Assembly (NCBI GenBank): GCA_016219225.1
Contig: JACRBX010000071.1
Coordinates: 1-46,665, forward strand
DNA from: Deltaproteobacteria bacterium
GTDB lineage: Bacteria > Desulfobacterota > RBG-13-43-22
Length of the DNA stretch: 46,665 nt
Reading direction: 5' to 3'
Below, in pieces: positions 3,479 to 45,428 of this stretch (its first letter is position 1; every line of letters begins with the position of its first letter). Below the pieces are notes generated by a model. The model saw only the letters and a list, made by a program, of their open reading frames with translations. It did not search any database and was not told the origin of the DNA. The position numbers and the translations under genes are program-made.

Positions 3479-3718
3479 GCCGAAGATAAATTCCTTCCTG
3501 GAGCAAACGGCGAAATGAGATTGTATTTGTCAGACTGATCGAATTATTATAAGCGCTTGAAATTATAGAGCAGATTATAAAATGAGCGGGGATAAATAGT
3601 CAAGAAGAGATATCAGCTTGATTAGCCCAGCAATTTGGACAATTTGACAAATTAAAATAATAAATTAGTACGGTGTCCCTGGCATTCCTGCGGATGGGCC
3701 TTCATTTATAGTGAGCGG

Positions 3719-5449: not shown

Positions 5450-5499
5450 TTTCAGATTTCGGAATTCGGATTGCTGAATAAAAGCTGCAAAAAGGAAAC

Positions 5500-17606: not shown

Positions 17607-18863
17607 ATGGCAACAATGAGTTCACGAGTAGGCGCATTAATGATTGTGTTGGTAGCGGTAGTCTTGCTTTTTTCACCCAATGCCGGCGCTGCCGGAAAAA
17701 CCGTCTATATCGGCGGTACCATGTCCTTGACCGGACCCTACGCCGAGGATTCGGCCTCGGTCCTGGCCGCCTTTGAAGATTATGTCAAATATGTAAACGA
17801 GACCAAGCAACTGGCCCCCTGGCGCAAGGATAAATGGCCGGCCGATATTAACATCGAGCTGCTCTGGCGGGATGATGAGCTTAAACCGGCCAAGGCCCTC
17901 TCGATCTATGAAGAACTCAAGGCCAAGGGAATGCTGGTCTATAGAATATCCGGTTCCCCCATCGCCCTGGCCCTGAAGGACAAGCTGAATCAGGACCACA
18001 TGGGTGCCACGAGCATGGCCTCGGGCCCCTATCTCCTCAAGCCCCCACAAACCGTTTTCACCTATTATCCGATTTATACCGATGCCCTGGCGGCCATCGC
18101 CGATTGGTTTAAGGAAAACTGGAAAGGCCCCGGCAAGCCCAGGGTGGCCTATCTCACCGCCGACAATGCCATGGGTAAGTCCATTGAGATTCCCGAGTTA
18201 AAAGCCTATCTGGAGAAGGCCGGGTTTGAATTTGCGGGTATCCAGTATGTGCCTCTGGTCCCCACTTCTCCACCAACCACCCAGCTTATGTGGCTGAAAC
18301 AAAACAATGTCAACCTGGCCCTGGGCGTGATGGTCAATCCCGGTTCCCAGCCCACTGTCAAAGAGATGGTCCGGCTGGGCATGGGACCGCACTTGGCCTA
18401 TAAGATGACCCTGGGTTGTGCCTTACCCAGTCACGCCGCCGTCTTCGCCCCGGCCATGGGGACCCTGGGGGACGGTTTTGTGGTGGCCGGCAGTTTCCCT
18501 CCCTTAGATGACCTGGCCACACCGGGGATCAAATTCTGTGACGATCTGCAGAAAAAATATCGCCCCAACAAAAAGGCTACCCACGTTATGTATGTGGGCG
18601 GTATGCTGGAAGCCATGGTCCAGGTCGAGGCCATCAGGCTGGCCATGCAGACCACGCCGCTGGAAAAATTAAAACCGATCGATGTCCTCCAGAACGGCTT
18701 CTACAAGATCAAAAATCTGGACACCGGTCATTTGAGTGCCACACCCCTGAATTATAGTAAAGGGGATATCGAGGGTGTCGATGCCGTCCGGGTCGATCAG
18801 GTCCAAAAAGGGAAGGTCGTCAAGGTGGGCGTTTGGCCGACCCGTCATATTTATCCCCATTAA
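17607..18863 (+). CDS. livK: LIV ABC transporter substrate-binding protein LivK (system 1)
   Basis: The 418-residue type I periplasmic binding protein has a signal peptide (about 1-28, cleavage after AGA). The mature protein begins with VYIGGTMSLTGPYAEDSASV, and the lobes alternate as usual (LWRDDELKPAKALSIYEEL, VAYLTADNAMGKSIEIPELK). It delivers substrate to LivH-LivM. The ligand pocket is not similar enough to LivJ or LivK of E. coli to name a ligand. AGGAGGAG gives a strong ribosome site. A hairpin (18881-18913) follows the stop. Confidence 0.9.
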   Translation: MATMSSRVGALMIVLVAVVLLFSPNAGAAGKTVYIGGTMSLTGPYAEDSASVLAAFEDYVKYVNETKQLAPWRKDKWPADINIELLWRDDELKPAKALSIYEELKAKGMLVYRISGSPIALALKDKLNQDHMGATSMASGPYLLKPPQTVFTYYPIYTDALAAIADWFKENWKGPGKPRVAYLTADNAMGKSIEIPELKAYLEKAGFEFAGIQYVPLVPTSPPTTQLMWLKQNNVNLALGVMVNPGSQPTVKEMVRLGMGPHLAYKMTLGCALPSHAAVFAPAMGTLGDGFVVAGSFPPLDDLATPGIKFCDDLQKKYRPNKKATHVMYVGGMLEAMVQVEAIRLAMQTTPLEKLKPIDVLQNGFYKIKNLDTGHLSATPLNYSKGDIEGVDAVRVDQVQKGKVVKVGVWPTRHIYPH

Positions 18864-18880
18864 TCTTTCAACACCCCACT

Positions 18881-18913
18881 CCCATACTTCCCCTCTCAAA
18901 AGGGAGGTATGGG
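18881..18913 (+). terminator. Hairpin downstream of livK (possible attenuator or terminator)
   Basis: CCCATACTTCCC pairs with GGGAGGTATGGG (about 13 bp with one wobble) around a short A-rich loop. There is no T-run, so Rho-independent termination is uncertain; it could protect the transcript 3' end. Confidence 0.45.
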
Positions 18914-18970
18914 GGTTGAGCACCGCACAGTTTGAAAATGGGACTTGGGCCTACGGGAGAGAGGCGATGG

Positions 18971-19075
18971 GCAAGGTTCAAGGGTTAAGGGTTTTACACT
19001 TGCAACCTGCAACTTGCAACTTTCTTTTCAACTGACCCCTGACCCCTGACCCCCGACCCCCGACCCCCGATCCCT
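18971..19075. repeat. Mixed heptamer repeats between livK and the DUF169 gene
   Basis: Three different 7-base words lie in series: AAGGTTC AAGGGTT AAGGGTT, then GCAACCT GCAACTT GCAACTT, then CCCCTGA twice and CCCCCGA three times. This is the richest array in the LIV region. Confidence 0.8.
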
Positions 19076-19110
19076 GGAAACAATTTTCGTACTAACCGAA
19101 AGGAAGTATC

Positions 19111-19866
19111 ATGACCTCATCAGGATGGGACCAAGCGGGCTGGATAGAGATATCAAAAAAGCTTAATCTGGAACTGCCGCCGATAGCCGTCAGTTTTATG
19201 ATAAAACCGCCGGAGGGGATCAAAAAACTGGAAGACCCGCTGGCCATGTGTGAAATGCTCAAGCGGGCTCAGGAAGGGCAGGCCTTCTATGCCGGTACGG
19301 AAAACCATACCTGTCCCGCCGGACCTTACATCCTGGGCAAAAGTGCGCCCCCGGCTTACACCTCGGGAGAATTCGGGGCCGGATTGAAGGTTTTCAACCA
19401 TTTCCGGGCCATGAGAAGGTTGTATGACGACCTTCCTAAATTCGATGCCGGCCGGAATATTAATTATGTAGCCTTTTCTCCCCTGGACCGGCTGACCTTT
19501 GTGCCCGATCTTCTCATCCTGGTAGCCGAGGTGGATCAGGCCGAGATCCTGTTGCGGGCCATGAGTTATTCCACCGGAAAGGTCTGGACCAGCAAATCCA
19601 CCGGCGTCATCGGCTGCGCCTGGATCTATACCTATCCCTATCTGAGCGGTGAAGTGAATTATATTACCACCGGCCTGGGTCATGGGATGAAAAGAAGGAA
19701 AGTTCTTCCCCCCGGGCGGCAACTGATTGCCATCCCCTATGACTGGTTGGCCGTCATGCTCTCCAATCTGAAAACCATGCCCTGGGTCCTGCCCATGTTC
19801 CAGCCCGATGCGGACGATTTTCTCAGGAACCTCAAGACCGACCTGGGGCTTGATCCCGACCATTAA
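19111..19866 (+). CDS. DUF169 domain-containing protein
   Basis: This 251-residue cytosolic protein of the DUF169 family is recognised by LELPPIAVSFMIKPPEG near the start, the conserved cysteine block CEMLKRAQEG with NHTCPAGPYILG (about 45-75), and the late motif VIGCAWIYTYPYLSGEVNY. The biochemical role of the family is unknown. Conserved cysteines suggest a metal or redox site, but this is inference. Many DUF169 genes lie beside acyl-CoA synthetase and LIV genes, as here. GAAAGGAAG precedes the ATG. A small terminator-like hairpin lies at its stop. Confidence 0.85.
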   Translation: MTSSGWDQAGWIEISKKLNLELPPIAVSFMIKPPEGIKKLEDPLAMCEMLKRAQEGQAFYAGTENHTCPAGPYILGKSAPPAYTSGEFGAGLKVFNHFRAMRRLYDDLPKFDAGRNINYVAFSPLDRLTFVPDLLILVAEVDQAEILLRAMSYSTGKVWTSKSTGVIGCAWIYTYPYLSGEVNYITTGLGHGMKRRKVLPPGRQLIAIPYDWLAVMLSNLKTMPWVLPMFQPDADDFLRNLKTDLGLDPDH

Positions 19867-19886
19867 GCTGTTTTCAAGCTTTTTTC
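19865..19886 (+). terminator. Rho-independent terminator after the DUF169 gene
   Basis: AAGCT and AGCTT arms flank a 7-base loop and are followed by a run of T. The stem is short, so strength is probably modest. Confidence 0.45.
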
Positions 19887-19916
19887 CTGAAATGTCAAAC
19901 TTGACTGATTGACAGG
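19876..19916 (+). promoter_or_regulatory. Shared motif copy A upstream of the hydrolase gene
   Basis: CAAGCTTTTTTCC, then TCAAAC and TTGACTGATTGACA, recur in the same order at 23559-23599 upstream of the second livK. Both copies begin about 10 bases after a stop codon and flank the hydrolase/response-regulator/kinase block. They could be response-regulator sites or duplicated spacer sequence. Confidence 0.4.
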
Positions 19917-20003
19917 ACAAAAAGAATCGAGTACCTTTTCTCTCGAAACTGTCAGACCGCCTATTCGGCTGTTTTTTCCAATGAATAAAAGGGAGGTACT
20001 CTG

Positions 20004-21053
20004 ATGAGAAAACCCATGTTGTTTTCGTCTTTGGCTGTTGGGAAACGGTGTACGTTTGTTCATGGGACACGGAAGGTTTTGTGGCCTCTGCCCCTGGCAA
20101 TGGTTTTGATGATTTTCATGCTGGTCCAGGGAACGGCCCAGGCCCAGGTGGCCCGCATCGAATTCCATCCGGTGGCGACAATAACCCTCAGTGACTCTGA
20201 ACTGTTAAGCGGTCAGGCAACGGGGAAACCCGTCACCATCGCCGGCGTCCTCAACCTACCCAAACCCGGAAAAGACAAGCTTCCGGCCGTCATCATCCTC
20301 CACGGATCAAGCGGCCCCGGCGGCACGAACGGGCCCACGGCCGACTGGTCGCACCGTCTCAACGCCCTCGGCATTGCCACCTTCGGCCTGGACTGCTTCG
20401 CCGGCCGCGGCATCGTCTCGACCTCGGAGGATCAGGGGAAGTTCGGCCGCCTGAATATGATCGTCGACGCCTATAAAGCTCTGAAGCTTCTGTCGCGTCA
20501 TCCGCGCATCGATCCGGGTAAAATCGCCCTCCTCGGCATCTCGCGCGGCGGCCAGGGTGCGCTCTATGCCGCCATGAAGCGGATGCGGACCGCCTATGGT
20601 TCGCCCCAGGTGGAATTTGCCGGGTTCATGGCCTTATATCCTAATTGTATCACTTCCTACCGAGATGAGACGGTCACTACCGGAAAGCCGATCCGTATCC
20701 TCCATGGCACGGCCGACGACTACAACCCGATCGTTCCCTGCCGTGCTTATGTAGATCGGGCCGGGAAAGCCGGGGCCGATATCCAACTCCTTGAATATAA
20801 CGGCGCCCACCACGGCTTTGATGCGGAAGCCTTGCGTAAGTCCATTCAATGCAAAACCTGTCAGACGGACCGCCGCTGCAAACTGGCCGAGAAAGAAGGC
20901 GGCCTCATCGTCAATCTCGAAACGCAGAAGCCTTTCAGCTATTCAGATGCCTGCGTCGAAACCGGGACCACCCTGGCTTACAACGAAGCGGAGGGCCCCA
21001 AGGCCCGGGCCGATGCCCTTGAATTCTTCAAAAGCCTTTTCGGGTTGAAATAA
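20004..21053 (+). CDS. Exported dienelactone-hydrolase-like alpha/beta hydrolase
   Basis: The 349-residue protein has a long signal peptide (about 1-50; hydrophobic LPLAMVLMIFMLVQGTAQAQ). It then has an alpha/beta hydrolase fold with HGSSGPGG (oxyanion region), nucleophile elbow GISRGG, acid in HGTADDYNP and catalytic histidine in NGAHHGF. It resembles dienelactone hydrolase family esterases that act in the periplasm. A cysteine-rich insert (CKTCQTDRRC) after the histidine is unusual and may form disulfides. GGGAGG lies before the ATG at 20004. The gene immediately precedes the two-component pair and could be its target or share its stimulus. The natural substrate is unknown. Confidence 0.82.
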   Translation: MRKPMLFSSLAVGKRCTFVHGTRKVLWPLPLAMVLMIFMLVQGTAQAQVARIEFHPVATITLSDSELLSGQATGKPVTIAGVLNLPKPGKDKLPAVIILHGSSGPGGTNGPTADWSHRLNALGIATFGLDCFAGRGIVSTSEDQGKFGRLNMIVDAYKALKLLSRHPRIDPGKIALLGISRGGQGALYAAMKRMRTAYGSPQVEFAGFMALYPNCITSYRDETVTTGKPIRILHGTADDYNPIVPCRAYVDRAGKAGADIQLLEYNGAHHGFDAEALRKSIQCKTCQTDRRCKLAEKEGGLIVNLETQKPFSYSDACVETGTTLAYNEAEGPKARADALEFFKSLFGLK

Positions 21054-21085
21054 TTACCGCACCGCTTGTAAAGGAAGATGGCGGC

Positions 21086-21739
21086 ATGAGCATTAAGGTA
21101 TTCCTGGCCGACGATCATCGCATTGTCCGGGAGGGTTTTCGTTTGCTTCTGGAGACCCAACCCGATATCATCGTGATAGGGGAGGCGGTTAACGGTCGCG
21201 AGGCGGTCCGGCAGGTTGTGATACTTTCCCCCGATATCTGCCTCATGGATATAGCCATGCCGGAACTGAATGGGGTTGAAGCCACCCGGCAGATCTCCCG
21301 GGAATGTCCCACCGTGAGGGTGATCATACTCTCCATGTATTCCACCAGCCAGCACATATTCGGAGCCCTTCAGGCCGGGGCCCGGGGTTATATCCTGAAG
21401 GAATCGGCCGGAGACGATCTGATAAAGGCCGTCAGGGCCGTCCATAGCGGTCAGACCTTCCTTTGCAGCGAGATTTCAGAGACCGTAGCCGGCGACTACG
21501 TGCGGCACCGGGAGATAGCCGAGGGACAAGGTCCGCTGGCCAGTCTCAGCCCCCGGGAGCGGGAGATCCTCCAACTTCTGGTGGAAGGTAAGTCCAATGT
21601 CAAGATTGCCGAACGTCTCTTTCTTTCCCCGAAGACCGTGGAGACCTACCGGAGCCACCTGATGCAGAAACTGGGCTTAAGCGACCTGCCGGCCCTGGTA
21701 AAGTTCGCCATCCAGCACGGCCTGACCTCCCTGGAGTAG
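21086..21739 (+). CDS. NarL/FixJ-family response regulator
   Basis: The 217-residue protein has a receiver domain (about 3-120) with acidic pair DD at 9-10, phospho-acceptor Asp55 (ICLMDIAMPE), Ser/Thr in IILSMYS and Lys in GYILKES. A LuxR-type helix-turn-helix follows (about 150-212; LSPREREILQLLVEGKSN, LFLSPKTVETYRSHLMQKL). All key residues are present. The kinase gene starts 10 bases after its stop, so they form a cognate pair. It is the only response regulator in the window. Likely targets are the flanking hydrolase and LIV genes (inference). Confidence 0.93.
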   Translation: MSIKVFLADDHRIVREGFRLLLETQPDIIVIGEAVNGREAVRQVVILSPDICLMDIAMPELNGVEATRQISRECPTVRVIILSMYSTSQHIFGALQAGARGYILKESAGDDLIKAVRAVHSGQTFLCSEISETVAGDYVRHREIAEGQGPLASLSPREREILQLLVEGKSNVKIAERLFLSPKTVETYRSHLMQKLGLSDLPALVKFAIQHGLTSLE

Positions 21740-21749
21740 GAACAATCCC

Positions 21750-23549
21750 ATGACATGGTTCAGGCCTAAACCGGCCCTGATTTTCTTCCTGGCCCTTCTC
21801 TCTATCTATTCACCCCTCCTGGCCGTAGAAAATCCCCTGCAAACGGTTTTTCTACTCCACTCCCACCACCGGGGCTATAAATGGACCGACGATCAGAATG
21901 CCGGGATAGAAGCGGCCCTGAAAGAGGCCGTGGGTCCGAATCAGATCTATATCGAGTACATGGATACCGGCCGGATGCCTCACGACCGGGACTACCGTGA
22001 TCTTCTTCGGGTCTACCAAATTAAATACAGCGGTTTGAAATTCGACGTCATCTGCGTCACCGATGCCGATGCCTTGCGGTTCATGCTGACCTACCGGGAC
22101 CGGCTCTTTCCGGGCACCCCGGTGGTTTTCTCCGGCGTCAACGATGCCGAAGAGGCTGACCTGAAAAAGGCCAAGAACTTTACCGGCGTGAGCCTGGAGG
22201 CCGACCTGAAGGCCAACCTGGAACTAATCCTGAAACTGCATCCCCAAACACGGCTGGTGGTCTTTATCAATGAGTGGACTACCAAAGGATACCGTCTCCA
22301 CGAGGAGTTCCTGAAAATCAGCCCCCTTTTCGAAAAATCGACCGCATTTGTTTTATTAGAGGACAAGGATACCAAGGAGATCTTTCAGGTCCTGGGAGCC
22401 CTGCCGCCGCAAAGCGTCATCCTTTACGGGGTATTCGGCCGGGACAAGGTGGGCCGGATATTCGACTATGATGAGATTATTGCCCTCATCGCCCGCAATT
22501 CAAAAGCGCCGATCTACAGCCCATGGGATTTCAATCTCGGCCATGGCATCGTCGGGGGTGTCATGACCACCGGCTACTCTCAGGGAGAAGCCGCCGGGAA
22601 ACAGGCCTTAAGGATTCTCCGGGGCGGCCGGGTCCGTTATATCCCGGTGGAAAGGACTGCTCCCAAACGTACCACCTTCGATTACCATCAACTCAAGCGT
22701 TTCAAGATCGGCCGCCATCAATTGCCGGCCGGGAGCCTGGTCATAAACCATCCGGAAACCTTCTATCAAAAGCATAAAAGGCTTATCAATACGGCTATCG
22801 CGATTATCGCCGCCTTATTAGCGGTTATCTCCGTCCTTCTGATCAACATCCAGGCCCGGAGACGAACCGAAAAAGAGCTCATGGCTTCCCGGGAACAGCT
22901 TCGTGGGCTGGGTTGGCGGCTCTCCGAAACCGAAGAGAAGGGGCGGAAGGCCTTGTCCAGGGAGCTACACGATCAGATTGGGCAAAACCTGACCATCCTG
23001 GGTGTTAACCTGACCATCCTTAGATCCCTGATCCCCAGGGAGGCGCCTGCGCTGGTCTACTCCCGGATTACCGATTCTGTGGCTCTGGTGAAACAGACCA
23101 CCGAGAAGGTTCGGAACCTGATGAGCGATCTGCGGTCCCCGGTACTGGACGACTACGGCCTGGTAGCGGCCCTGGACCATTATGCCAAACAATGGGGCGC
23201 CCGGACAGGGATTGAAATTACGGTCCGTGGCCCCGGGTCGGACCTTCGCCCGGCGCTGCAGGTTGAAAACGCCTTGTTCCGGATTGTTCAAGAGGCCTTG
23301 ACGAATGTGGTCAAGCATGCCAAGGCCGGGGCGGTTGTCATTACCGTAAGCATGATGAAAGAGAAAGTGATCATTTCAATCGAAGATAACGGCATCGGTT
23401 ATGACACAACGTCGGCCGCCCATTCGGAAGACAAGGGAGGCTGGGGGTTGATGACCATGGAAGAAAGGGCTCTGGCTGTGGGAGGGACCTTCCGGGTCAA
23501 GTCAGGCTCGGAGATTGGGACCCAGGTAGTGGTCGAGGTACCGTTATAA
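21750..23549 (+). CDS. Sensor histidine kinase with ABC-type substrate-binding sensor domain
   Basis: The 599-residue membrane kinase has a signal or first helix (about 8-25), then a periplasmic domain like the ABC_sub_bind family (about 30-320; FDVICVTDADALRFML, GTPVVFSGVNDAEE, GIVGGVMTTGYSQGE). A transmembrane helix (345-368) and coiled linker follow. The HisKA_3 dimerisation box has phospho-accepting His407 (SRELHDQIGQNLT), and the HATPase domain has N box near 517, G1 EDNGIG (545-550) and a GWGLMTM box. It would sense a small extracellular molecule and phosphorylate the adjacent NarL-type regulator. Its position between two LIV importers suggests it detects their substrate. Confidence 0.92.
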   Translation: MTWFRPKPALIFFLALLSIYSPLLAVENPLQTVFLLHSHHRGYKWTDDQNAGIEAALKEAVGPNQIYIEYMDTGRMPHDRDYRDLLRVYQIKYSGLKFDVICVTDADALRFMLTYRDRLFPGTPVVFSGVNDAEEADLKKAKNFTGVSLEADLKANLELILKLHPQTRLVVFINEWTTKGYRLHEEFLKISPLFEKSTAFVLLEDKDTKEIFQVLGALPPQSVILYGVFGRDKVGRIFDYDEIIALIARNSKAPIYSPWDFNLGHGIVGGVMTTGYSQGEAAGKQALRILRGGRVRYIPVERTAPKRTTFDYHQLKRFKIGRHQLPAGSLVINHPETFYQKHKRLINTAIAIIAALLAVISVLLINIQARRRTEKELMASREQLRGLGWRLSETEEKGRKALSRELHDQIGQNLTILGVNLTILRSLIPREAPALVYSRITDSVALVKQTTEKVRNLMSDLRSPVLDDYGLVAALDHYAKQWGARTGIEITVRGPGSDLRPALQVENALFRIVQEALTNVVKHAKAGAVVITVSMMKEKVIISIEDNGIGYDTTSAAHSEDKGGWGLMTMEERALAVGGTFRVKSGSEIGTQVVVEVPL

Positions 23550-23558
23550 TCCATTTAT

Positions 23559-23599
23559 CAAGCTTTTTTCCGAAAAAATCAAACCTGTCTGATTGTCAA
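23559..23599 (+). promoter_or_regulatory. Shared motif copy B upstream of livK2
   Basis: It has the same series as copy A: CAAGCTTTTTTCC identical over 13 bases, then TCAAAC, then CTGTCTGATTGTCA against TTGACTGATTGACA. It lies 9 bases after the kinase stop and about 140 bases before livK2. Confidence 0.4.
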
Positions 23600-23651
23600 T
23601 TGAAGGCTCATCTGGTAATTCCTACCTAAACTCTATATAGAGTAACAACGG

Positions 23652-23713
23652 ACCTTGAAAATGGGTTCAAGGTTTGTCTCACTTGAAATTTGCATCTTGA
23701 AACTTGAAACTGT
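23652..23713. repeat. Heptamer repeat upstream of livK2
   Basis: Degenerate words around CTTGAAA (CTTGAAA CTTGAAA CTG at the end) with a 7-base period run up to the livK2 ribosome binding site. Confidence 0.65.
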
Positions 23714-23736
23714 TTCTTAAAGAAAGGAGAAATAGT

Positions 23737-24954
23737 ATGAAAAGGTTATTTGTATTATTAGTTCTTGCAGGTTTCACGGCCGCCGGTTTTCTGGTTTGCC
23801 CGGCCTCCCAGGCCGCTGATACGATCAAGGTGGGCATTGTGGACACCTATACGGGTCCGGCCACGGCCTACACCCAGGATATGCTTGACGCCTTCAAGCT
23901 GGCCGTGGAAAAGATTAATGCCAAAGGCGGGGTCCTGGGCCGGAAGATCGTCTACACCACCAGGGATGAAAAATTCAAACCCGATATCGGGTTGTCCATG
24001 GCCAAGGAACTGGTTATGAAAGAAAACGTCGATATCCTCATGGGGACCATCAACAGCGCCACGGCCCTGGCCGTATCAGACTTTGCCAAAAAGGAAAAGA
24101 TCCCCTTTTTTATCACCTTTTCCAAGAGTGAGAAACTTATCGGAGAGAAGGGCCACCACTACGTCTTCAACATGAATGAGAATACCGAAATGGCCGGCCG
24201 GGCCGCCGCCGTGTCTTTGGCCAGAAAGCCCTATACCAAATATTGGATCTGCGGGGATGACTACGAGTACGGTCATGCCATCGCCGATGCCGTCTGGAAC
24301 AGCCTGAAAAAGTTGAAACCGGGGGTCCAACTCCTCGGCCAGTCCTGGTGGAAGGTGGGGGAGGCCGATTTTACCCCCTATATCACCCAGATCCTGGCCG
24401 CCAAACCCGATTTCCTTATCGTGGCCACCGGTGGCGGCGGCATGGTCAACTTCCAGAAGGCGGCCAAGGCCACCGGGTTGAACCAGAAGGTGCCCTTCTA
24501 TCAGCACACGGCCACTGAACTGGGGACCCTGCTGCCCCAGGGTCCGGATGCACCGGAGGGGATCTACGGAACCAGCCAGTATCATTTCTACTTTCCCAAT
24601 ACGCCGGCCAACCGGGCCTTTGCCGATGAGTTCAACAAGGTCTACAAGAGATACCCGAAGGCCACGGCCCTGATCGGTTATATGACGGCCCAGTTCATCG
24701 CCGAGGGATACAAGAAGGCCGGAAAGGTGGACAAAGAGGCGCTGATCAAGGCCCTTGAGGGAATGACCCTTGATTCACCCGGGGGGCCTCTATCCATCCG
24801 GGCCTGCGACCATCAGCTCGAGCTGCCCATGTATTGGGGCATCACTAAAAAGGACCCCAAGTATCCCTTTCTCGTCTCAGGCGATATCCAGGCCGTAGCG
24901 CCCAAGGACTACATGCCGACCTGTGACGAAATCATGAAGCAGAGAAAGCCCTAA
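23737..24954 (+). CDS. livK: LIV ABC transporter substrate-binding protein LivK (system 2)
   Basis: The 405-residue periplasmic binding protein has a clear signal peptide (MKRLFVLLVLAGFTAAGFLV onwards, cleavage near SQA-AD). The mature part starts IKVGIVDTYTGPATAYTQDM, with ALAVSDFAKKEKIPFF and YWICGDDYEYGHAIADAVW typical of Peripla_BP_6. The ATG at 23737 follows AAAGGAG; an upstream in-frame TTG at 23704 lies in repeat sequence and would spoil the signal peptide. It heads the second LIV operon. The ligand is unknown. Confidence 0.92.
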   Translation: MKRLFVLLVLAGFTAAGFLVCPASQAADTIKVGIVDTYTGPATAYTQDMLDAFKLAVEKINAKGGVLGRKIVYTTRDEKFKPDIGLSMAKELVMKENVDILMGTINSATALAVSDFAKKEKIPFFITFSKSEKLIGEKGHHYVFNMNENTEMAGRAAAVSLARKPYTKYWICGDDYEYGHAIADAVWNSLKKLKPGVQLLGQSWWKVGEADFTPYITQILAAKPDFLIVATGGGGMVNFQKAAKATGLNQKVPFYQHTATELGTLLPQGPDAPEGIYGTSQYHFYFPNTPANRAFADEFNKVYKRYPKATALIGYMTAQFIAEGYKKAGKVDKEALIKALEGMTLDSPGGPLSIRACDHQLELPMYWGITKKDPKYPFLVSGDIQAVAPKDYMPTCDEIMKQRKP

Positions 24955-25003
24955 CCAAATTTGGACGCTGGTGAACGCAGATTGCCAGGATTTAACTTGA
25001 AAA

Positions 25004-25078
25004 GAGTATCAAGTATCAAGTATCAAGTTGCAGGTTGCAGGTTGCAGATTTTCGCTTTGAGCTTTCAGCTTTGATCTT
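25004..25078. repeat. Heptamer repeats between livK2 and livH2
   Basis: AGTATCA repeated three times runs into GTTGCAG repeated three times and then CTTTGAG CTTTCAG CTTTGAT. Three words follow each other with the 7-base spacing kept across most junctions. Confidence 0.85.
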
Positions 25079-25159
25079 ATTTCTTGAACCCGCGGGTATC
25101 GGCGAAAATCTGCGTCCTAATTAAAGAATCCAAACCGGACCCGTTAAGGGAGTGCTGTA

Positions 25160-26059
25160 ATGGACCTTGTTTATACCTTATGCCCGCCGGCGGTGCTCTG
25201 CCAGATCTTTGTGGGCCTCAGCCGGACGACGATCCTTTTCATCGTCTCCTCGGGCTTAAGCCTTATCCTGGGGGTACTCCGGATTCCGAACGTCGCCCAC
25301 GGCTCGCTCTATATGATCGGCGCCTTTGTAGCCTTCACCATATCAAAGCTTTTCGGCGGCGGGAGCCTCGGTTTCTGGATGGCCCTCATCATCGCCCCCC
25401 TGATCGTGGCCCTCATCAGCTTCCTCTCCGAACGGGGGATCTTCCAGTACCTCTACGAGAGGGAGCACCTGATGCTCATCCTGCTCACCTTTGCCTTCTC
25501 CCTGGTTTTCGGGGACCTGGTAAAAATCATCTGGGGGGGCGAGTACAAGTCCGTACCCGTCCCCCAGGTCTTCCAGGGGTCAGTGGCCCTCTTCGGGGGA
25601 CTTCCCTTTCCTTTATACAATATCTTTCTCCTGATTGCCGGCCCTATCATCGCCGTGTCCCTCTGGCTCATGGTCAATAAAACCAAGATGGGTAAGATCG
25701 CCCGGGCGGCCGCCGTGGACCGGGAGATGGTCGGGGCCGTCGGCATCAACGTAAGCTGGATATTTGCGATGGTCTTCGTGATCGGTTGTTTTTTGGCCGG
25801 TTTGGGCGGAGTCCTGGTGGCCCCCACGGTGAGCGTCACCCTGGGTATGGATCATACCCTCATCATCGAAGCCTTCCTGATCGTCATCATGGGCGGTTTG
25901 GGCAACATCTGGGGTGCCCTCCTGGGGGCCCTCATCTTCGGACTTTCCCAATCTCTGGGCATCCTGATCTGGCCCAAGTTCGGCATCATCTTCCCCTATC
26001 TGGCAGTGGTCGTTGTGCTCCTGCTCAGACCCACGGGATTGCTCAAGTCTACCTGGTAG
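25160..26059 (+). CDS. livH: LIV ABC transporter permease LivH (system 2)
   Basis: The 299-residue membrane protein has about eight helices. It contains SSGLSLILGVLRIPNVAHGS in the first third, a RAAAVDREMVGAVGINVSW coupling loop and GGLGNIWGALLGALIFG near the end. ATG 25160 gives the usual N-terminus; no strong Shine-Dalgarno is visible immediately upstream. It forms the channel with LivM2. The gene ends 14 bases before livM2. Confidence 0.92.
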   Translation: MDLVYTLCPPAVLCQIFVGLSRTTILFIVSSGLSLILGVLRIPNVAHGSLYMIGAFVAFTISKLFGGGSLGFWMALIIAPLIVALISFLSERGIFQYLYEREHLMLILLTFAFSLVFGDLVKIIWGGEYKSVPVPQVFQGSVALFGGLPFPLYNIFLLIAGPIIAVSLWLMVNKTKMGKIARAAAVDREMVGAVGINVSWIFAMVFVIGCFLAGLGGVLVAPTVSVTLGMDHTLIIEAFLIVIMGGLGNIWGALLGALIFGLSQSLGILIWPKFGIIFPYLAVVVVLLLRPTGLLKSTW

Positions 26060-26073
26060 GAGGAGGCCTCTAA

Positions 26074-27096
26074 ATGAAAATGCGAATATCGAATAGCGAA
26101 TATCGAAGGCCGAAGGCCGAAGGGGAGATTCCTTTAAATTCCGAACTCCGAACACCGAACTCCGAACTCTTTTTTCTAACCAAGGCCGCGGTCTGGTTGA
26201 TCGCCGGACTGGCCCTCCTGTGCCTCGCCCCTCTTTTTTTGCCCAGGTTCTACATCTACCTGCTTTCGGTCATGCTCCTTTACGGGCTTCTGGCCTCCAG
26301 CAACAACCTGGCCCTGGGTTTCGGAGGGATCTACCAGCTCCACCATGCCGTCTTCTACGGGGTCGGGGCCTACGGGTCGGCCCTGATGATCGTCAAATCG
26401 GGGCTTTCGCCCTGGCTGGGCTTCCTTGTGGGGCCTCTGGTGGCCGCGGCCCTGGGGCTCGTCATGGGGGTGATCTGTATCCGCCTCTCCAAGCTCTACT
26501 TCGGCATGCTCCAGATCTCGCTGGGCTCCCTGGTCTGGGTCATCGTCTACCGCTGGTACTCCTTTACCGGGGGGGATGACGGCATCCACGGCATTACCGT
26601 GCCCGATCTGATTTCCACCGGTCAAGGGGCCTACTACTTTACCCTGACGGTCACCACCTTGTCCATGGTCGCCATGTATCGTGTCTTGAAATCGCCCTTC
26701 GGCAGCGCCCTCCAGGGCATACGGGACAACCCCGTCAGATCGGCCATGATCGGCATCAACGTCCGGAGACACCAGCTCCTGACCCTGGTGATCGTGGCCT
26801 TTTTTGCCGGGGTGGCCGGGACCCTCTTTGTCGTTGTAGACAATACGGTCTTCCCCGATATGCTTTTCTGGACCCTCTCCATGGAAGCGGTCATCATGTG
26901 CCTGTTAGGAGGTTGGCTCACCTTCCTGGGACCCATGCTCGGGGCCTCCCTGATCGTGGCCATCAGAACCTTCGTCAGCACCTATACGGTTTACTGGGCC
27001 CTGGTGCTGGGCATCATCTTTATGCTGGTCATCTTCTTCCTCCCCGACGGAGTCCTGGGGTGGGGGGAAAGCAAACTGAAACCGGCCAAGGAGTGA
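26074..27096 (+). CDS. livM: LIV ABC transporter permease LivM (system 2), with a repeat-derived N-terminus
   Basis: The 340-residue permease has about ten membrane segments, the NLALGFGGIYQLHHAVFYGV landmark and the coupling loop ALQGIRDNPVRSAMIGINV. Residues 1 to about 36 are not permease-like: they include SELRTPNSEL and are encoded by heptamer arrays (GAATATC/GAAGGCC, then CCGAACT). ATG 26074 has a strong GGAGGAGG site, so the repeat lies inside the translated region. Family members normally start close to the first helix (here from about residue 38). An internal TTG near 26197 is an alternative start but has no obvious ribosome site. Confidence 0.88.
   Translation: MKMRISNSEYRRPKAEGEIPLNSELRTPNSELFFLTKAAVWLIAGLALLCLAPLFLPRFYIYLLSVMLLYGLLASSNNLALGFGGIYQLHHAVFYGVGAYGSALMIVKSGLSPWLGFLVGPLVAAALGLVMGVICIRLSKLYFGMLQISLGSLVWVIVYRWYSFTGGDDGIHGITVPDLISTGQGAYYFTLTVTTLSMVAMYRVLKSPFGSALQGIRDNPVRSAMIGINVRRHQLLTLVIVAFFAGVAGTLFVVVDNTVFPDMLFWTLSMEAVIMCLLGGWLTFLGPMLGASLIVAIRTFVSTYTVYWALVLGIIFMLVIFFLPDGVLGWGESKLKPAKE
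26081..26172. repeat. Heptamer repeats within the livM2 coding region
   Basis: GAATATC GAATAGC GAATATC GAAGGCC GAAGGCC comes first, then at 26140-26172 CCGAACT CCGAACA CCGAACT CCGAACT. The second block is identical over 33 bases to the spacer at 32329-32361 in the toxin-antitoxin island. Confidence 0.9.
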
Positions 27097-27099
27097 GCG

Positions 27100-27849
27100 A
27101 TGTTACGCGTCGAGTCCTTATCGAAAGCCTTTGACGGCTTCCAGGCCGTTTTCAAGACCAACTTGCAGGTCAATCAGGGGGAGATCGTGGCCGTTATCGG
27201 TCCCAACGGGGCCGGTAAGACGACCCTGTTCAACCTCATTTCGGGCATCATCAAGCCCGATTCCGGCCGGGTCCTTTTTAAAGACGAAGACATTACCGGG
27301 CTTCCTCCCCATAAGATCTGCCGCAAGCGCCTGTCAAGGTCCTTTCAGGTCGTCAACGTCTTCCAGCGGCTGTCGGTTTTTGAAAACGTTCAGATCGCCG
27401 TCCTGTCCAGGGAGCGGAAGACCTGGAACCTTTTCACCCCCTCATCCAAACTGGTCCAGGAAGAGACCAACCGCATCCTGGAGGACGTTGGACTTTTGGA
27501 AAAGAAAAACCGCACCACGGCCCTGCTCTCCCATGGAGACCGGAAGGTCCTGGAGATTGCCATGGCCCTGGGGGGGAATCCCGAGTTCCTGATCCTCGAT
27601 GAGCCGACGGCCGGCATGGCCCCGGAGGAAACCGCGCGGTGCATCGCACTCATCAGGGACATTTCCAAGAAGCTGGGGTTGACTATTTTATTCTGCGAGC
27701 ATGATATGGAGATCGTCTTCGGGATCGCCGACCGGATCATGGTCATGGTCAGGGGGACGCCCATCATCCAGGGCACCTGTGAGGAAGTGCGCTGCAACCA
27801 AGCGGTCCAGGACGCCTATCTCGGGGGAGACGACGGATGCTTGATGTAA
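27100..27849 (+). CDS. livG: LIV ABC transporter ATP-binding protein LivG (system 2)
   Basis: The 249-residue ATPase has Walker A GPNGAGKT (about 34-41), a diverged signature LSHGDRKVLEIAMAL, Walker B FLILDEPTAGM and a CEHDMEIV switch. It starts 3 bases after livM2 stops, and its end overlaps livF2 by 13 bases. It lacks the long insert seen in LivG of system 1, so the two systems are not recent copies of each other. Confidence 0.92.
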   Translation: MLRVESLSKAFDGFQAVFKTNLQVNQGEIVAVIGPNGAGKTTLFNLISGIIKPDSGRVLFKDEDITGLPPHKICRKRLSRSFQVVNVFQRLSVFENVQIAVLSRERKTWNLFTPSSKLVQEETNRILEDVGLLEKKNRTTALLSHGDRKVLEIAMALGGNPEFLILDEPTAGMAPEETARCIALIRDISKKLGLTILFCEHDMEIVFGIADRIMVMVRGTPIIQGTCEEVRCNQAVQDAYLGGDDGCLM

Positions 27850-28526
27850 AGAATATCCATACCTATTACGGCCTGAGTCACATCCTTTTTGATATATCGC
27901 TCACAGTCTCCAAAGGAGAGGTGGTGGGACTTTTGGGCAGAAACGGCGCCGGCAAGAGCACCACCATGCGGAGCATCATGGGTCTTACCCCTCCCCGGGA
28001 CGGGACCGTCTCTTTCAAGGGAGAAGACCTGAGGGGCGTAAAACCCTATGCCCTCTTCCGCAAAGGCATCGGCTATGTGCCGGACGACCGGCGGGTCTTC
28101 GCAGATTTGTCGGTGGATGACAATCTGGAGATCGTCCACTCCCGCTCTCCCCAATGGACCAAGGAGCGGGTTTACGGCCTCTTTCCGGCCCTCCGGGAGA
28201 TCCGGGCCAGACGGGCCGGCCACCTTTCCGGAGGCGAGCAGCAGATGCTGACCATTGCCCGGGCCCTTATGGGCAGCCCCGACCTCCTCCTCCTGGATGA
28301 GCCCACCGAGGGTCTGGCTCCCCTCATCGTCAAAAATCTGGAGGAGCAAATCCTGCGGCTCAAAGAGGCCGGTATCTCGATCCTCCTCTCCGAACAGAAC
28401 ATCCGGTCGGCCCTGAAGATGATCAGCCGCGCCTACGTGATCGACAACGGTCACATCCGCTTCGAAGGCACCGTGGCCCAACTCGAAGCCGATGAAGAGG
28501 TCAAGAAAAAGTATCTGATGGTGTGA
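27837..28526 (+). CDS. livF: LIV ABC transporter ATP-binding protein LivF (system 2)
   Basis: The 229-residue ATPase has Walker A GRNGAGKS (about 34-41), signature LSGGEQQMLTIARALMG, Walker B LLLLDEPTEGLAP and LSEQN switch. It completes the second five-gene LIV operon. ATG 27837 lies inside the livG2 end, which implies coupled translation. Length is normal for LivF. A cluster of palindromes lies about 70 bases downstream. Confidence 0.92.
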   Translation: MLDVKNIHTYYGLSHILFDISLTVSKGEVVGLLGRNGAGKSTTMRSIMGLTPPRDGTVSFKGEDLRGVKPYALFRKGIGYVPDDRRVFADLSVDDNLEIVHSRSPQWTKERVYGLFPALREIRARRAGHLSGGEQQMLTIARALMGSPDLLLLDEPTEGLAPLIVKNLEEQILRLKEAGISILLSEQNIRSALKMISRAYVIDNGHIRFEGTVAQLEADEEVKKKYLMV

Positions 28527-41306: not shown

Positions 41307-41456
41307 ATGAGTCTTTTTCTTGAGGGAATAATTGCCGGTATATTTATCGGTCTATTTCTGGGAGTATTTGTTCTCGCATTAATGCAAGCGGCAAAAGCAA
41401 ACAGTGATAACGAGAGAATCTTCCTCAGCCAATGGGGAGGCATCCGTACCGGATAA
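41307..41456 (+). CDS. 49-residue single-pass membrane protein
   Basis: ATG 41307 has AGGAGGT 6-9 bases upstream. The product begins MSLFLEGIIAGIFIGLFLGV and continues hydrophobic to about residue 27 (one transmembrane helix with glycines every 4-5 residues), then has a polar tail ending WGGIRTG. It resembles small DUF3789-like membrane peptides in layout, but I cannot assign a family. The excellent ribosome site and the sigma-54-like promoter support expression. It overlaps a degraded minus-strand frame at its 3' end. Confidence 0.55.
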   Translation: MSLFLEGIIAGIFIGLFLGVFVLALMQAAKANSDNERIFLSQWGGIRTG

Positions 41457-41841
41457 AGGCCAAGTTTCCCTTGATCTCGTGTGTGATTTGCATTTCCATT
41501 TCATCAAATGCCGAAAACACATCGTCTGAACTTCGGGAAATGAGCGCTCCTGATCCGGCAAGCGTATTCAGATAGAGGTTGCTCCAACGACTGCCCTGTA
41601 GCAGTATGGTTATTGCTGAATTTCCACCATCTGTTAATACCCGATGAATCTCCACGACAGGATCGGGATGCCTTCTCCGCAATGAGGTAACCTGGTGCAT
41701 CTCGGAGTGGAAGAAGTCCCGCATCTTGGTTCCGCTCATGAGGATGAAAGGGTACTCCTTGAAAAGCTCGGGAGTGGATACGGGAGAGAGCGGAGGCTCG
41801 ATATAGACGGGCGGCCAAGACCTCTCATGTCCCCGACCCAT
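41425..41841 (-). pseudogene. Molybdopterin oxidoreductase fragment fused to unrelated sequence
   Basis: Residues about 10-65 (PVYIEPPLSPVSTPELFKEY, SGTKMRDFFHSEMHQVTSLR, RRHPDPVVEIH) match the region before the C-terminal molybdopterin-dinucleotide domain in formate-dehydrogenase-like oxidoreductases. The remaining 70 residues match nothing I recognise. The molybdenum site and iron-sulfur cluster domains are missing. The frame is open for 138 codons but function as an oxidoreductase is impossible. It probably represents rearranged debris between the kinases and the cyclase. Confidence 0.6.
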
Positions 41842-41853
41842 TTAATCGGGTTT

Positions 41854-43539
41854 CTAAAAACCATTTAATTTGAAACCGACATCGGCTGATATTCTAACCC
41901 GGTTGCGCCCTTCGTGCTTGGCTTTATAGAGTGCCTGATCGGCCGGTGCGATAATCATCGAGGGTTGCGTTCCCATAATAGGAATAACAGCAGCTACCCC
42001 GACACTCACGGTAACAACCTTGCTGATGGACGAATTCTCATGTTTAATGCCAAGACCTTCAATCGTTGCTCTTATCTCTTCCGCCAAGAAAGCAGCACCC
42101 TCCATCTCAGTATTAGGGAGCACAGCGGCAAACTCCTCGCCACCATAGCGAGCAGCTAAATCAACACTCCGTCTCAACGTAGCTTTCAAGGTGCCGGCTA
42201 CCTGTTTCAAGCAGTCATCTCCGGCCTGATGTCCATACACATCATTATAGTTTTTAAAAAAATCAATATCGATCATAACGAGCGCCAGCGAAGACCCTTG
42301 CCGTATCCCGTGTTGCCACTCTTGGGCTAAAACTTGGTCAAAATAACGCCGATTAGCAATCCCCGTTAAGCCGTCCGAAGAGGAAAGTTGCTGCAATTCT
42401 TTGTTTACCGCCACCAGTTCCTGAGTCCTCTGGGAAACCTGTACTTCCAGCTCATCTTTAGCCTTGCGCAAGGCGTCTTCCCGTGCCTGGAGGGTACTAC
42501 TCATTGACTGAAAGTCGGCCGCCAGCTCATTCAACTCGGCAAAAGCAGTCGACTGGGCGGTCAAAGAACCGGCCTGAGTAAAGTCTCCTGCTGTCAGAGC
42601 ATTTGTTACCCGGCTGAACCGCTCCAGCGGGGAAATCACGAAGCGCTGTAATTGTTTACGGAGATCCCACAGTAACAATAACCAGATCATCAAGGATATT
42701 AGAAGGATCAACCCCAATATCCATACGTATAGACTTAAAAAAGCAGACAAAGGCACCTGATCCACTACCAACCATCCTGTACGCTCTACCCGGACCGCAC
42801 TACCCAAAACACTTGTTCCGTAATACGAATAAATGCCATTAGCCTTTCCGGCTAAAATGCGGTGAACTATTTCCAAGTTGCTCAGGTTGGTTTGCTGTTT
42901 GACCAAGTCCGGAGAGGGATGGGCTATGAGTGTTCCGGCTTGATCCATTATGAAAACAAAGTCCTTACCCAACCGGCCCGTGATGTTGGTAATTTCTTTC
43001 TGAAATAAGCCTAGATTCAGTTCACCGACCACATAGCCTCCGCGGGAAAGGGTTTTAACCAGGTAAACCGTAGGTTCGCCCGTACGCAGCGAAATAAAGG
43101 GCCTCGAAATAATGAGGCTTTTCTTTTTTTCTGTTTGCTGAATGTCCGGTAAATTCGACATATCCAGACCTAAGTAACGCGAATCGGAAGGCGTTAATAA
43201 TTTAATTTTTTTAGCTTCATCCAAATAATACAAAGTTTCAAAATACCCATAGGCCTCCCAGGTGCTTTTCATATAAGTGGTTAAACTTTCCGCCCCAGAA
43301 GATTCAGCTACATGGGCTACCGCGTCTAAGATGCGCCCCCCCTGGTCTAGATGGTGATCGACTATGCGGGCCATTGATTGGGCCATCTGGTACTGCTGGA
43401 TTTCAAGGTTCCGTTCCTCTAAATAGCCCACTCCGGCAATGGTTATAAATCCCAGGATCAAAAGAGGAAGGAACAGGCGAAAGAGTACCAAATGCGACAA
43501 CACCTGACGGAGGAAAGGGAAATCCTTTCCGTTGGCCAT
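41854..43539 (-). CDS. Diguanylate cyclase with periplasmic Cache sensor and HAMP
   Basis: This 561-residue inner-membrane enzyme makes cyclic di-GMP from GTP. TM1 is about 15-38, a dCache-type periplasmic domain about 40-265 (SLIISRPFISLRTGEPTVYL), TM2 about 269-291, HAMP about 292-345, a coiled linker, and GGDEF about 385-545. The active site reads GGEEF (466-470), and an inhibitory I-site RSVD lies at 457-460, five residues before it, so it should be active and product-inhibited. It overlaps the upstream binding-protein gene by one base (TAATG), implying co-translation and joint ligand sensing. Confidence 0.93.
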   Translation of the reverse strand: MANGKDFPFLRQVLSHLVLFRLFLPLLILGFITIAGVGYLEERNLEIQQYQMAQSMARIVDHHLDQGGRILDAVAHVAESSGAESLTTYMKSTWEAYGYFETLYYLDEAKKIKLLTPSDSRYLGLDMSNLPDIQQTEKKKSLIISRPFISLRTGEPTVYLVKTLSRGGYVVGELNLGLFQKEITNITGRLGKDFVFIMDQAGTLIAHPSPDLVKQQTNLSNLEIVHRILAGKANGIYSYYGTSVLGSAVRVERTGWLVVDQVPLSAFLSLYVWILGLILLISLMIWLLLLWDLRKQLQRFVISPLERFSRVTNALTAGDFTQAGSLTAQSTAFAELNELAADFQSMSSTLQAREDALRKAKDELEVQVSQRTQELVAVNKELQQLSSSDGLTGIANRRYFDQVLAQEWQHGIRQGSSLALVMIDIDFFKNYNDVYGHQAGDDCLKQVAGTLKATLRRSVDLAARYGGEEFAAVLPNTEMEGAAFLAEEIRATIEGLGIKHENSSISKVVTVSVGVAAVIPIMGTQPSMIIAPADQALYKAKHEGRNRVRISADVGFKLNGF

Positions 43540-44708
43540 TATTTACCTCCAGCTCCGTTCAATGTCATCTTCTGAAGAATTATAAATTTGCCACCCCGAA
43601 TAGTACTTAAATAAAAGGGCCGCTCAACATCCCCAAAGCGATCGAAAGAGAAGGTATCCATCAGCCCCCGGAAGTCACGAATTCCCGTCAACGCCTGCCG
43701 CAAACCCTCCGCCTTGCCGCCGGTCTTTTCCAAGGCGGCTGCCAGGACCAGAGCGGCTTCATAACCAAAAGCAGCGCCGAAAGAAGGGGCTTGTCCGAAT
43801 CTGGCCTGATAGCGCGTTTGGAAATCCAGAAACCCTCGCGATTGGCTGCTCACTGCATACGCCTGTTCGATTTTAAGTCCTTCAACAGCCTGCCCGCCAT
43901 TTTTGATCAGGGTTTCGGTCTGAGCCCAGGCGGAAGAATATCTGCGTATCTCCCAATTCATGAGGCGAGATCTCTGGGTGATAAGCGCCGTATCCACATC
44001 CGAAGCAATAATAAGCAGCCCATTTGCCTTACTTCTCCGTAGTTTCAACAGCAAAGAGGTAAAGTCCGGTTGCGCTTTTGAAGAAAAACTGACTTCGTCA
44101 GCTATCTTCCCGCCTATAGACTGAAATTTTTCGGCAAAGGCTGTGCTGTAAGTCTTAGCATAAGCGGCGTTGTCATTATCGTATATAACAGCCAATCGAG
44201 TTACCCCCTCCCGCCGATAAGTATACTCGGCAAAGGCTTGGGCACTGTCTTTGAAGGAAGGATAGACCCGAAAGAAATAATCGTCCAAGCCGCTTAATTT
44301 CGGAGAAGAAACCGTCGGACTGAGCATAATGACTTTGGCAGGGTTTGTTACCTCAAGGCCGGCCACGGCTTGCGCACTCGTGGCATGTCCAATAATGGCA
44401 TGGACACCCGCCTTAATCAATTCCTGATCGGCTTCCTTTGCTTTCTCCGGGACACCCAGGTCATCCCGGACTAGTAATTCGATCTTATGTCCGGCTACCC
44501 CACCGGCTTCATTAATGGTCTCTATGGCTAATTGGACGCCATTTCGTTCCTGCACACCTAATTCAGCCTGTCTGCCGGTCAGTTGGGCGGAAAACCCTAT
44601 GAGGATAGGTTTCTTTTTAATACAGCCTTCTAATTGGAAACTGAGTGATCCGATCAACAAAATGACCCCAACGATGCCTGACCATGAATGACGGTAATTT
44701 CTGATCAT
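43539..44708 (-). CDS. LIV-type substrate-binding lipoprotein coupled to the diguanylate cyclase
   Basis: The 389-residue Peripla_BP_6 protein has a lipoprotein signal peptide with lipobox LEGC (Cys29), then ILIGFSAQLTGRQAELGVQE, IIGHATSAQAVAG and AAFGYEAALVLAAALEKTGG as in amino-acid-type binding proteins. Unlike the two LivK genes it has no permease or ATPase neighbours; instead its stop overlaps the cyclase start. A sensory role, presenting a ligand to the Cache domain of the cyclase, is the best inference. Anchoring to the inner or outer membrane is not certain. Confidence 0.88.
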   Translation of the reverse strand: MIRNYRHSWSGIVGVILLIGSLSFQLEGCIKKKPILIGFSAQLTGRQAELGVQERNGVQLAIETINEAGGVAGHKIELLVRDDLGVPEKAKEADQELIKAGVHAIIGHATSAQAVAGLEVTNPAKVIMLSPTVSSPKLSGLDDYFFRVYPSFKDSAQAFAEYTYRREGVTRLAVIYDNDNAAYAKTYSTAFAEKFQSIGGKIADEVSFSSKAQPDFTSLLLKLRRSKANGLLIIASDVDTALITQRSRLMNWEIRRYSSAWAQTETLIKNGGQAVEGLKIEQAYAVSSQSRGFLDFQTRYQARFGQAPSFGAAFGYEAALVLAAALEKTGGKAEGLRQALTGIRDFRGLMDTFSFDRFGDVERPFYLSTIRGGKFIILQKMTLNGAGGK

Positions 44709-45084: not shown

Positions 45085-45414
45085 AAAGGAGGTTCTAAGC
45101 AGGACCCCACAAGTACCCCGGAAGCTACCGGACAAATCACAGGGCAAGTTGCAGGGCAAGTTTCCGCCGAAGTCTTGAAGATGCTGAAAATCATGTTGGG
45201 AGAGATGACACGCGTGGAGATCCAGGCGGCGCTGGGATTAAAGGGACGTGCGAATTTCGAAGAGCGCTACCTCAAACCAGCCATAGAGATGGGCCTGGTC
45301 GACATGACCCGCCCGGACAAACCCCGCAGTTCGAAACAACGGCATGGCTTTTTCCCGCAACCATCCGCAACCCAGGCGCAACCAGCTCAAAAACAAAAAC
45401 GGGCAAGCCGATAA
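45085..45414 (+). pseudogene. C-terminal fragment of a TGQV-repeat winged-helix protein (Fic or AlbA_2 type tail)
   Basis: An open frame without an ATG or GTG reads EATGQITGQVAGQVSAEVLK, then GEMTRVEIQAALGLKGRANF, ERYLKPAIEMGLVDMTRPDK and PRSSKQ. This is the C-terminal repeat and winged helix of Fic/AlbA_2-type regulators. A TTG at 45175 could start a 79-residue product, but it would drop the repeat. The front of the gene is missing. The last codons form the left arm of the tRNA terminator. Compare the more reduced relative at 1262-1474. Confidence 0.6.
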
Positions 45415-45428
45415 AGGCTTGCCCGTTT
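45390..45428 (-). terminator. Rho-independent terminator for tRNA-Leu
   Basis: A perfect 13-bp stem (AAACGGGCAAGCC/GGCTTGCCCGTTT, 45397-45409 with 45416-45428) has a 6-base loop and, on the minus strand, a following T-rich run. It lies 10 bases beyond the tRNA 3' end and can also end plus-strand transcripts from the fragment. Confidence 0.85.

Follow-up and report, generated by a model that had tools for sequence, protein, structure and literature searches.

Contig JACRBX010000071.1 of a Deltaproteobacteria bacterium (assembly GCA_016219225.1) was analyzed over positions 1 to 46,665, and this stretch of 46,665 nucleotides is called the window below. Two overlapping genes in the window encode a LIV-type periplasmic binding protein and a transmembrane diguanylate cyclase with a periplasmic dCache domain. 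The gene products probably form a two-protein receptor, in which the binding protein relays an extracellular small molecule to the dCache domain and thereby sets the synthesis of cyclic di-GMP (c-di-GMP). Gene order, gene overlap, domains, motifs, a conserved pairing, a swap of the output part, and an ancestry in common with c-di-GMP pairs of Chloroflexota can be read from the sequences themselves, and ligand binding, docking, the sign of the response, enzyme activity, and lipidation are the predicted parts of the scheme.

In the proposed mechanism, both proteins would come from one mRNA through coupled translation, and the lipid-anchored binding protein would close on its ligand. Either the liganded or the unliganded form would dock in the periplasm on the cyclase's dCache domain, and docking would alter the geometry of the dCache domain, the second transmembrane helix, and the HAMP region so as to change the pairing of the GGDEF domains. 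Pairing would set c-di-GMP synthesis, which the RxxD site would cap through product inhibition. The input cassette, a binding protein plus a dCache-HAMP sensor, would be an old one. It normally drives a histidine kinase, but in the line of descent to which this locus belongs a c-di-GMP enzyme follows the HAMP region and signaling helix.

A binding-protein gene overlaps the gene of a membrane diguanylate cyclase

A first-pass annotation of this DNA had described a LIV-type binding protein whose gene overlaps that of a Cache cyclase through TAATG, with the GGEEF motif and the inhibitory site of the cyclase intact. Exact coordinates, domain matches, and motif positions (Table 1) agree with that description. 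Moreover, a GGAGG sequence sits six bases 5′ of the cyclase ATG, and translation of the two genes is predicted to be coupled through TAATG.

The binding protein matches PF13458 over its full length (191 bits, profile positions 1 to 342 of 343). An AlphaFold2 model made from 53 aligned rows (predicted local distance difference test [pLDDT] score, 94.7) has the two-lobe LIV fold, and its best fold matches are LivK (3td9, Z score of 44.6) and LivJ (4gnr, Z score of 43.5) over about 345 residues. The lipobox cysteine is invariant in eight of eight aligned members, and 77 of the 101 binding proteins paired with a sensor show a lipobox-like pattern; the protein is predicted to be lipidated.

The cyclase has the sequence features of its class, namely, a GG[DE]EF motif, a metal-binding D motif, and an RxxD site, and its GGDEF domain also contains DGLTGIANRR and DIDFFK (residues 424 to 429) motifs. 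The domain is predicted to be enzymatically active. Tandem Cache domains lie between the two transmembrane helices, as in dCache_1 receptors. A model of the sensor part (residues 1 to 380; pLDDT, 91) starts with a long helix, continues with a Cache domain of two lobes and another long helix, and ends in the HAMP region. It matches solved dCache domains with Z scores of up to 22.0, and its dCache fold is intact.

No permease or ATPase gene adjoins the pair, and the LIV-type ATP-binding cassette (ABC) genes of the window (17607 to 28526) lie about 13 to 26 kb away. Thus, the binding protein is not encoded with LivH, LivM, LivG, and LivF as in a LIV-type ABC transporter; rather, by overlap and by conserved pairing its gene is coupled to that of a membrane GGDEF protein, as in systems of the NspS-MbaA kind. 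The first-pass statement that the binding protein is without any transporter holds locally but not genome-wide, as the 5.9-Mb genome contains 75 PF13458 matches, a strikingly large number of LIV-type binding proteins. The same genome has 15 GGDEF matches, and by coordinates the two kinds of match lie side by side only at this locus. Candidate c-di-GMP partners in the genome comprise four PilZ and 21 HD_5 matches.

The pairing is conserved, and its usual output is a histidine kinase

A search of 395 genomes of the phylum with the binding protein (E value of 1e-40) gave, besides itself, 55 matches in 47 other genomes, making up 54 loci (L055 has two in tandem). At 50 of the 54 loci the next same-strand gene encodes a Cache-type sensor with two transmembrane helices; contig ends truncate three of these 50, the sensor frame is split in two, and for L055 the gene following the second of its binding proteins was assigned manually. 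Four loci depart from the pattern, namely, L080, L101, and L107, in which no sensor was seen, and L114, which has a permease-like gene, a call that rests on transmembrane helices in a gene cut by the contig end. When loci from a wider scan (see below) are included, 88 of 99 sensor pairs are spaced by 10 bases or fewer and 46 of the 99 overlap. In the reverse direction, a search with the sensor part only gave 35 best non-self hits, 28 of which adjoin such a binding protein.

The 20 best-matching PF13458 genes in the host genome served as a control. A LIV permease or ATPase was found in the 1.5-kb flanks of 17, and a Cache sensor was found beside none of the 20. The control genes included L001, with a non-Cache kinase fragment upstream, and L012, with an open reading frame (ORF) that gave a weak receiver match.

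To describe the outputs, Pfam domains were counted in 47 full-length sensors, which were the window cyclase, the partners at 45 of the 54 loci, and L120 from the sensor search. The nine loci omitted were L058, L088, and L105 (contig ends), L103 and L104 (split partner), L080, L101, and L107, and L114. HATPase_c was found in 45 sensors, HisKA in 44, a receiver in 41, dCache_1 (E value of 0.001) in 32, and GGDEF in 2. Thus, a histidine kinase is the usual output (45/47), GGDEF is found only in the window and in L079 (output PAS-PAS-GGDEF-EAL), and the window protein represents an output swap. Homology in the sensor alignment spans the first transmembrane helix, the dCache domain, the second transmembrane helix, and the HAMP region, where glutamate E335 is invariant, and it ends near residue 360, just behind HAMP. 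We conclude that the same input is joined to different outputs past the signaling helix.

Other gene arrangements were seen around the kinase pairs. In L093 (8314 to 9240), L095, and L096, the binding protein and Cache kinase are followed by the gene of a GGEEF cyclase, a receiver-GGDEF protein in L093, and the same input may reach c-di-GMP there by phosphorelay. A kinase and a cyclase of this kind are also present in L117 and L118, where the binding protein is missing. Two Bacillota bins, L171 and L186, have a kinase pair and then a protein of 726 or 797 residues with GGDEF and an HD-GYP motif.

The nearest relatives are Chloroflexota pairs with c-di-GMP outputs

A wide scan of genome_contigs (84,980 species) was conducted with three close relatives as queries; the same collection scanned with the window binding protein as the lone query gave no relative. 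The scan returned 80 loci, of which 7 duplicated loci of the phylum and 73 were new. The next gene at the new loci encodes a sensor in 49 cases, a permease in 14, and a second binding protein in 5, and it was unclear in 5. Sensor pairs carry the labels Thermodesulfobacteriota, Myxococcota, Nitrospirota, Spirochaetota, Bacillota, Chloroflexota, and Pseudomonadota, many of them being metagenome bins. Tandem binding-protein genes precede one sensor in L055, L110, L158, L166, and L183, possibly providing two ligands per receptor.

The three nearest relatives, in the same order for both genes, are all from Chloroflexota: L179 (binding protein 54% and sensor 45% identical to those of the window), L180 (45 and 34%), and L182 (40 and 33%). 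A fourth Chloroflexota locus, L198, ranks 4th by sensor (31%) and 12th by binding protein (38%). Output domains are HD-GYP in L179 and L198 and GGDEF-EAL in L180 and L182. The HD-GYP motif reads HHERWDGSGYP in L198 and HQERWDGAGYP, one residue from the usual motif, in L179. The L179 sensor (1388 to 5668), the nearest relative of the window sensor, is a protein of 1,427 residues in which five GAF domains accompany HD-GYP.

Trees were built from 90 of 91 eligible pairs, with five sensors lacking a binding protein added to the sensor tree, and a concatenated tree was built from 42 chosen rows. The window, L179, L180, L182, and L198 form one clade in the sensor tree (support of 96) and in the concatenated tree (100/99). 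The c-di-GMP clade rests on these two trees because in the binding-protein tree alone the fork of the window has a support of only 88 and also takes in the kinase pairs L093, L095, and L096. The window was unplaced in a tree from the 53 rows of the phylum alone. Direct c-di-GMP outputs require at least four changes on the concatenated tree. Distances between binding proteins and distances between sensors were correlated over 90 pairs (r = 0.84; maximum of 0.15 in 999 permutations), and in three multicopy genomes the best matches of the two genes were concordant in 16 of 16 comparisons.

The tpiA gene beside the pair is 79 and 77% identical to those of two same-genus genomes, and therefore the contig belongs to this lineage. 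A misbinned contig, as an explanation for the Chloroflexota kinship, was rejected on the basis of this identity and of the pgk-tpiA-secG order held in common with a same-genus genome. In that genome, the order is kept, other genes lie behind secG, and the pair is missing; neither of the same-genus genomes (85 and 96% complete) yielded a close homologue. On the simplest reading, the locus acquired the pair, and Chloroflexota are a related source. We lean, with little more than even confidence, toward a dedicated c-di-GMP branch of a trans-phylum cassette that was coinherited, moved between Chloroflexota and Thermodesulfobacteriota, and was wired in close relatives to opposite enzymes (a GGDEF cyclase in the window, an HD-GYP phosphodiesterase in L179 and L198, and GGDEF-EAL in L180 and L182), with the wider family having reached c-di-GMP several more times, also via kinases and response regulator cyclases.

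A natural fusion contains both halves

Joint action of the two parts is hinted at most strongly by PDB entry 5ERE, a single chain (Dret_0059 of Desulfohalobium retbaense) that carries both halves. Residues 4 to 322 match the binding-protein profile (E value of 5e-22), residues 332 to 425 match the sensor profile (E value of 5e-7), and the dCache domain matches the sensor model of the window with a Z score of 21.0. Dret_0059 resembles the window pair in having PF13458-like and dCache domains together and differs in being one fused chain, the solved portion of which stops before any membrane or output part.

Further fusion candidates were rejected. L137, L138, L140, L141, and L142 are ORFs of 549 to 667 residues with the LIV-like domain at the C-terminal end; the profile match is C-terminal and no Cache domain was found in them. 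Their architecture resembles that of LpoA. The binding-protein profile match was absent from the ORFs called for L136 and L139, and in L090 a TAG codon separates a binding protein and a kinase that lie in the same frame.

The ligand may be amino acid-like

The first-pass annotation had suggested an amino acid-like ligand. In an alignment with 4gnr and 4mlc, the Ser and Ser/Thr positions of the LivJ carboxylate site, which we take to bind the ligand carboxylate, align in the binding protein; however, the residues that presumably hold the ligand amine in LivJ are not conserved. The LIV-type relatives with PDB structures include proteins that bind aromatic acids or urea. The LivK/LivJ fold and the aligned carboxylate sites make an amino acid-like ligand plausible but no more than that.

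The dCache domain was considered as a binding site in its own right. We take the core of the amino acid-sensing dCache motif to be R-x-W-Y, and its site was located by alignment with PctC. The residues of the dCache_1AA motif were taken in part from PMC10104139. The core, sought as R.W[YF] by regular expression in the expected stretch, is absent from 95 of 95 sensors, which therefore lack the mark of dCache_1AA amino acid sensors.

Alternative explanations

Several observations weigh against a two-protein receptor. The Glu at −2 of the lipobox is atypical. Seven of the 35 best sensor hits (L116 to L119, L121, L122, and L124) have no such binding protein as a neighbor. The sensor counts lean on the profile used because it was built mostly from the same loci, and Pfam dCache_1 alone finds 32 of 47. 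The matched trees show joint inheritance, which is expected of neighboring genes, rather than contact. In the results given in PMC11113362, three binding proteins encoded beside AgtS/AruS gave no sign of kinase activation and binding to AgtS was not found. The fusion also carries a warning that a dCache domain may bind a ligand itself, as the 5ERE dCache domain (residues 322 to 562) is given with cytosine as its ligand in PMC8694187, and the dCache domain of the window cyclase may bind a ligand of its own. Finally, with so many LIV transporters in the genome, the binding protein could serve a permease encoded elsewhere.

The last points lead to the reading in which the binding protein is a transport component, with its permease elsewhere, and is merely cotranscribed with a cyclase whose dCache domain directly senses that ligand or a different one. 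The transport-type LivK/LivJ fold, the number of PF13458 matches in the genome, the habit of dCache domains of binding ligands themselves (as in the cytosine assignment above), and the AgtS/AruS case, in which adjacency did not mean activation, are all consistent with it. We nevertheless consider it unlikely, as the partner is a sensor in nearly all loci of the phylum and, among these loci, a permease-like next gene occurs in L114 only, the R-x-W-[YF] core is missing from every sensor, and binding protein and Cache domain are fused in 5ERE. Dual sensing, with one ligand on the binding protein, another on the dCache domain, and integration of the two by the cyclase, is improbable; one 5ERE chain with both domains and a listed dCache ligand (PMC8694187) and the intact dCache fold of the model would fit it, but the dCache domain showed no assignable ligand motif. 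That the genes are chance neighbors or a decaying insertion with no common function is very improbable, for although the pair is missing at the syntenic site behind secG in one same-genus genome and a close homologue was found in neither, the two frames are intact, the motifs are complete, and loci with at least seven different phylum labels show the pairing.

We therefore favor the two-protein receptor. The partnership between binding protein and Cache cyclase put forward in the first-pass annotation is well supported by the conserved bicistronic pairing, the matched gene distances, and the solved natural fusion, and direct contact between the two proteins is likely.

Relation to known systems

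That a binding protein can steer a c-di-GMP enzyme is already known in principle from NspS-MbaA and ArtI-STM1987. NspS is a polyamine-type binding protein, not a LIV-type PF13458 protein. In Vibrio cholerae, this periplasmic protein sets the c-di-GMP output of the membrane GGDEF(-EAL) protein MbaA (PMC8967002). The window pair, known from sequence only, is like NspS-MbaA in that a binding protein would steer a membrane c-di-GMP enzyme; MbaA combines GGDEF with EAL and alternates between making and degrading c-di-GMP, whereas the window enzyme has GGDEF only. ArtI is the SBP_bac_3 protein of an arginine transporter encoded elsewhere. In Salmonella, the ligand response of STM1987, a dCache_1 diguanylate cyclase, needs this periplasmic amino acid-binding protein (PMC8846402); the same review gives SBP_bac_3 as the only member of the PBP clan that had been studied as a domain in c-di-GMP networks. 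The window likewise joins a dCache_1 cyclase to a binding protein, but unlike ArtI that protein is of the LIV type, and its gene overlaps the cyclase gene.

In the LuxP-LuxQ system of Vibrio, a periplasmic binding protein is bound to the dCache-type domain of a sensor kinase. LuxP is a sugar-type binding protein for autoinducer 2, and the output, unlike that of the window, is a hybrid kinase. The LuxQ Cache domain is given as binding no ligand in PMC8694187. The hybrid histidine kinase pairs of Thermodesulfobacteriota and other phyla have parts homologous to those of the window, in the same order and with the same kind of overlap, but their output is a histidine kinase, usually with a REC domain, and no cyclase. 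AmiC-AmiR of Pseudomonas resembles the window pair in that a LIV-fold binding protein signals by protein contact, and 1qo0 and 1pea are among the fold matches. That system is cytoplasmic and acts on an RNA-binding antiterminator.

No publication on PF13458-Cache-GGDEF pairs was found by title and abstract, with most subscription literature lying outside the reach of the search. The new elements are a binding protein of the LIV type in this role, the tight coupling of the pair, its membership in a broad kinase-feeding cassette, and related Chloroflexota pairs wired to c-di-GMP breakdown. Since close relatives are wired to opposite enzymes, the same cue may increase c-di-GMP levels in one organism while decreasing them in another. 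If the proposed receptor is correct, a nutrient-type binding protein would be a general, exchangeable signaling front end for which c-di-GMP enzymes are one output, and why one cue is wired to making, breaking, or phosphorelay would become directly askable. With a conserved input pair behind variable outputs, whatever is learned about ligand and docking on a convenient member could be transferred to the others. The signal is unknown for most c-di-GMP networks, and these receptors would form a set whose ligand can be screened on soluble protein.

Features and surroundings of the locus

Table 1. Features of the gene pair and its upstream region, in window coordinates
Feature	Position	Strand	Evidence
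LIV-type (PF13458) periplasmic binding protein, predicted lipoprotein, 389 aa	43539..44708	-	PF13458, AlphaFold2, fold matches
Signal peptide with LEGC lipobox, Cys29	44622..44708	-	Hydrophobic leader, sequence
GGAGG, ribosome-binding-site-like, for the cyclase, inside the 3′ end of the binding-protein gene	43546..43550	-	Sequence
TAATG stop/start overlap, one base common to TAA and ATG	43537..43541	-	Sequence
dCache-HAMP-GGDEF transmembrane diguanylate cyclase, two transmembrane helices, 561 aa	41854..43539	-	Domain matches
First transmembrane helix (approximate)	43417..43494	-	Hydropathy and model helix 9-80
Periplasmic dCache_1 domain, aa 43-259	42763..43413	-	52.1 bits, cutoff 45
Second transmembrane helix (approximate)	42664..42738	-	Hydropathy and model helix 264-316
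HAMP-like linker, aa 299-351	42487..42645	-	HAMP 20.2 bits, below Pfam cutoff 25
GGDEF catalytic domain, aa 388-547	41899..42378	-	175 bits
RSVD (RxxD) inhibitory-site motif, aa 457-460, five residues before GGEEF	42160..42171	-	Sequence
GGEEF active-site motif, aa 466-470	42130..42144	-	Sequence
13-bp inverted repeat and T-rich tail, terminator-like, between secG and the pair	45397..45428	.	Longest stem of the 8 sites found

Upstream of the pair, secG and tpiA lie beyond the inverted repeat, the position of which suggests a separate transcript for the pair; terminator-like sites are weak as a class, with 8 found versus 5.5 expected from shuffles. Behind the cyclase, an ORF of 138 residues (41425 to 41841) has a doubtful resemblance (E value of 0.19) to a fragment of a molybdopterin dinucleotide-binding domain and is perhaps a gene remnant.

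Elsewhere in the window, two PF13458 binding proteins are accompanied by LIV ABC genes (17607 to 28526). Just upstream of one LIV binding protein (23704), positions 21750 to 23549 encode a HisKA_3 histidine kinase with a PF04392 ABC substrate-binding-type domain, which, judged by its domains, is another binding-protein fold used for sensing.

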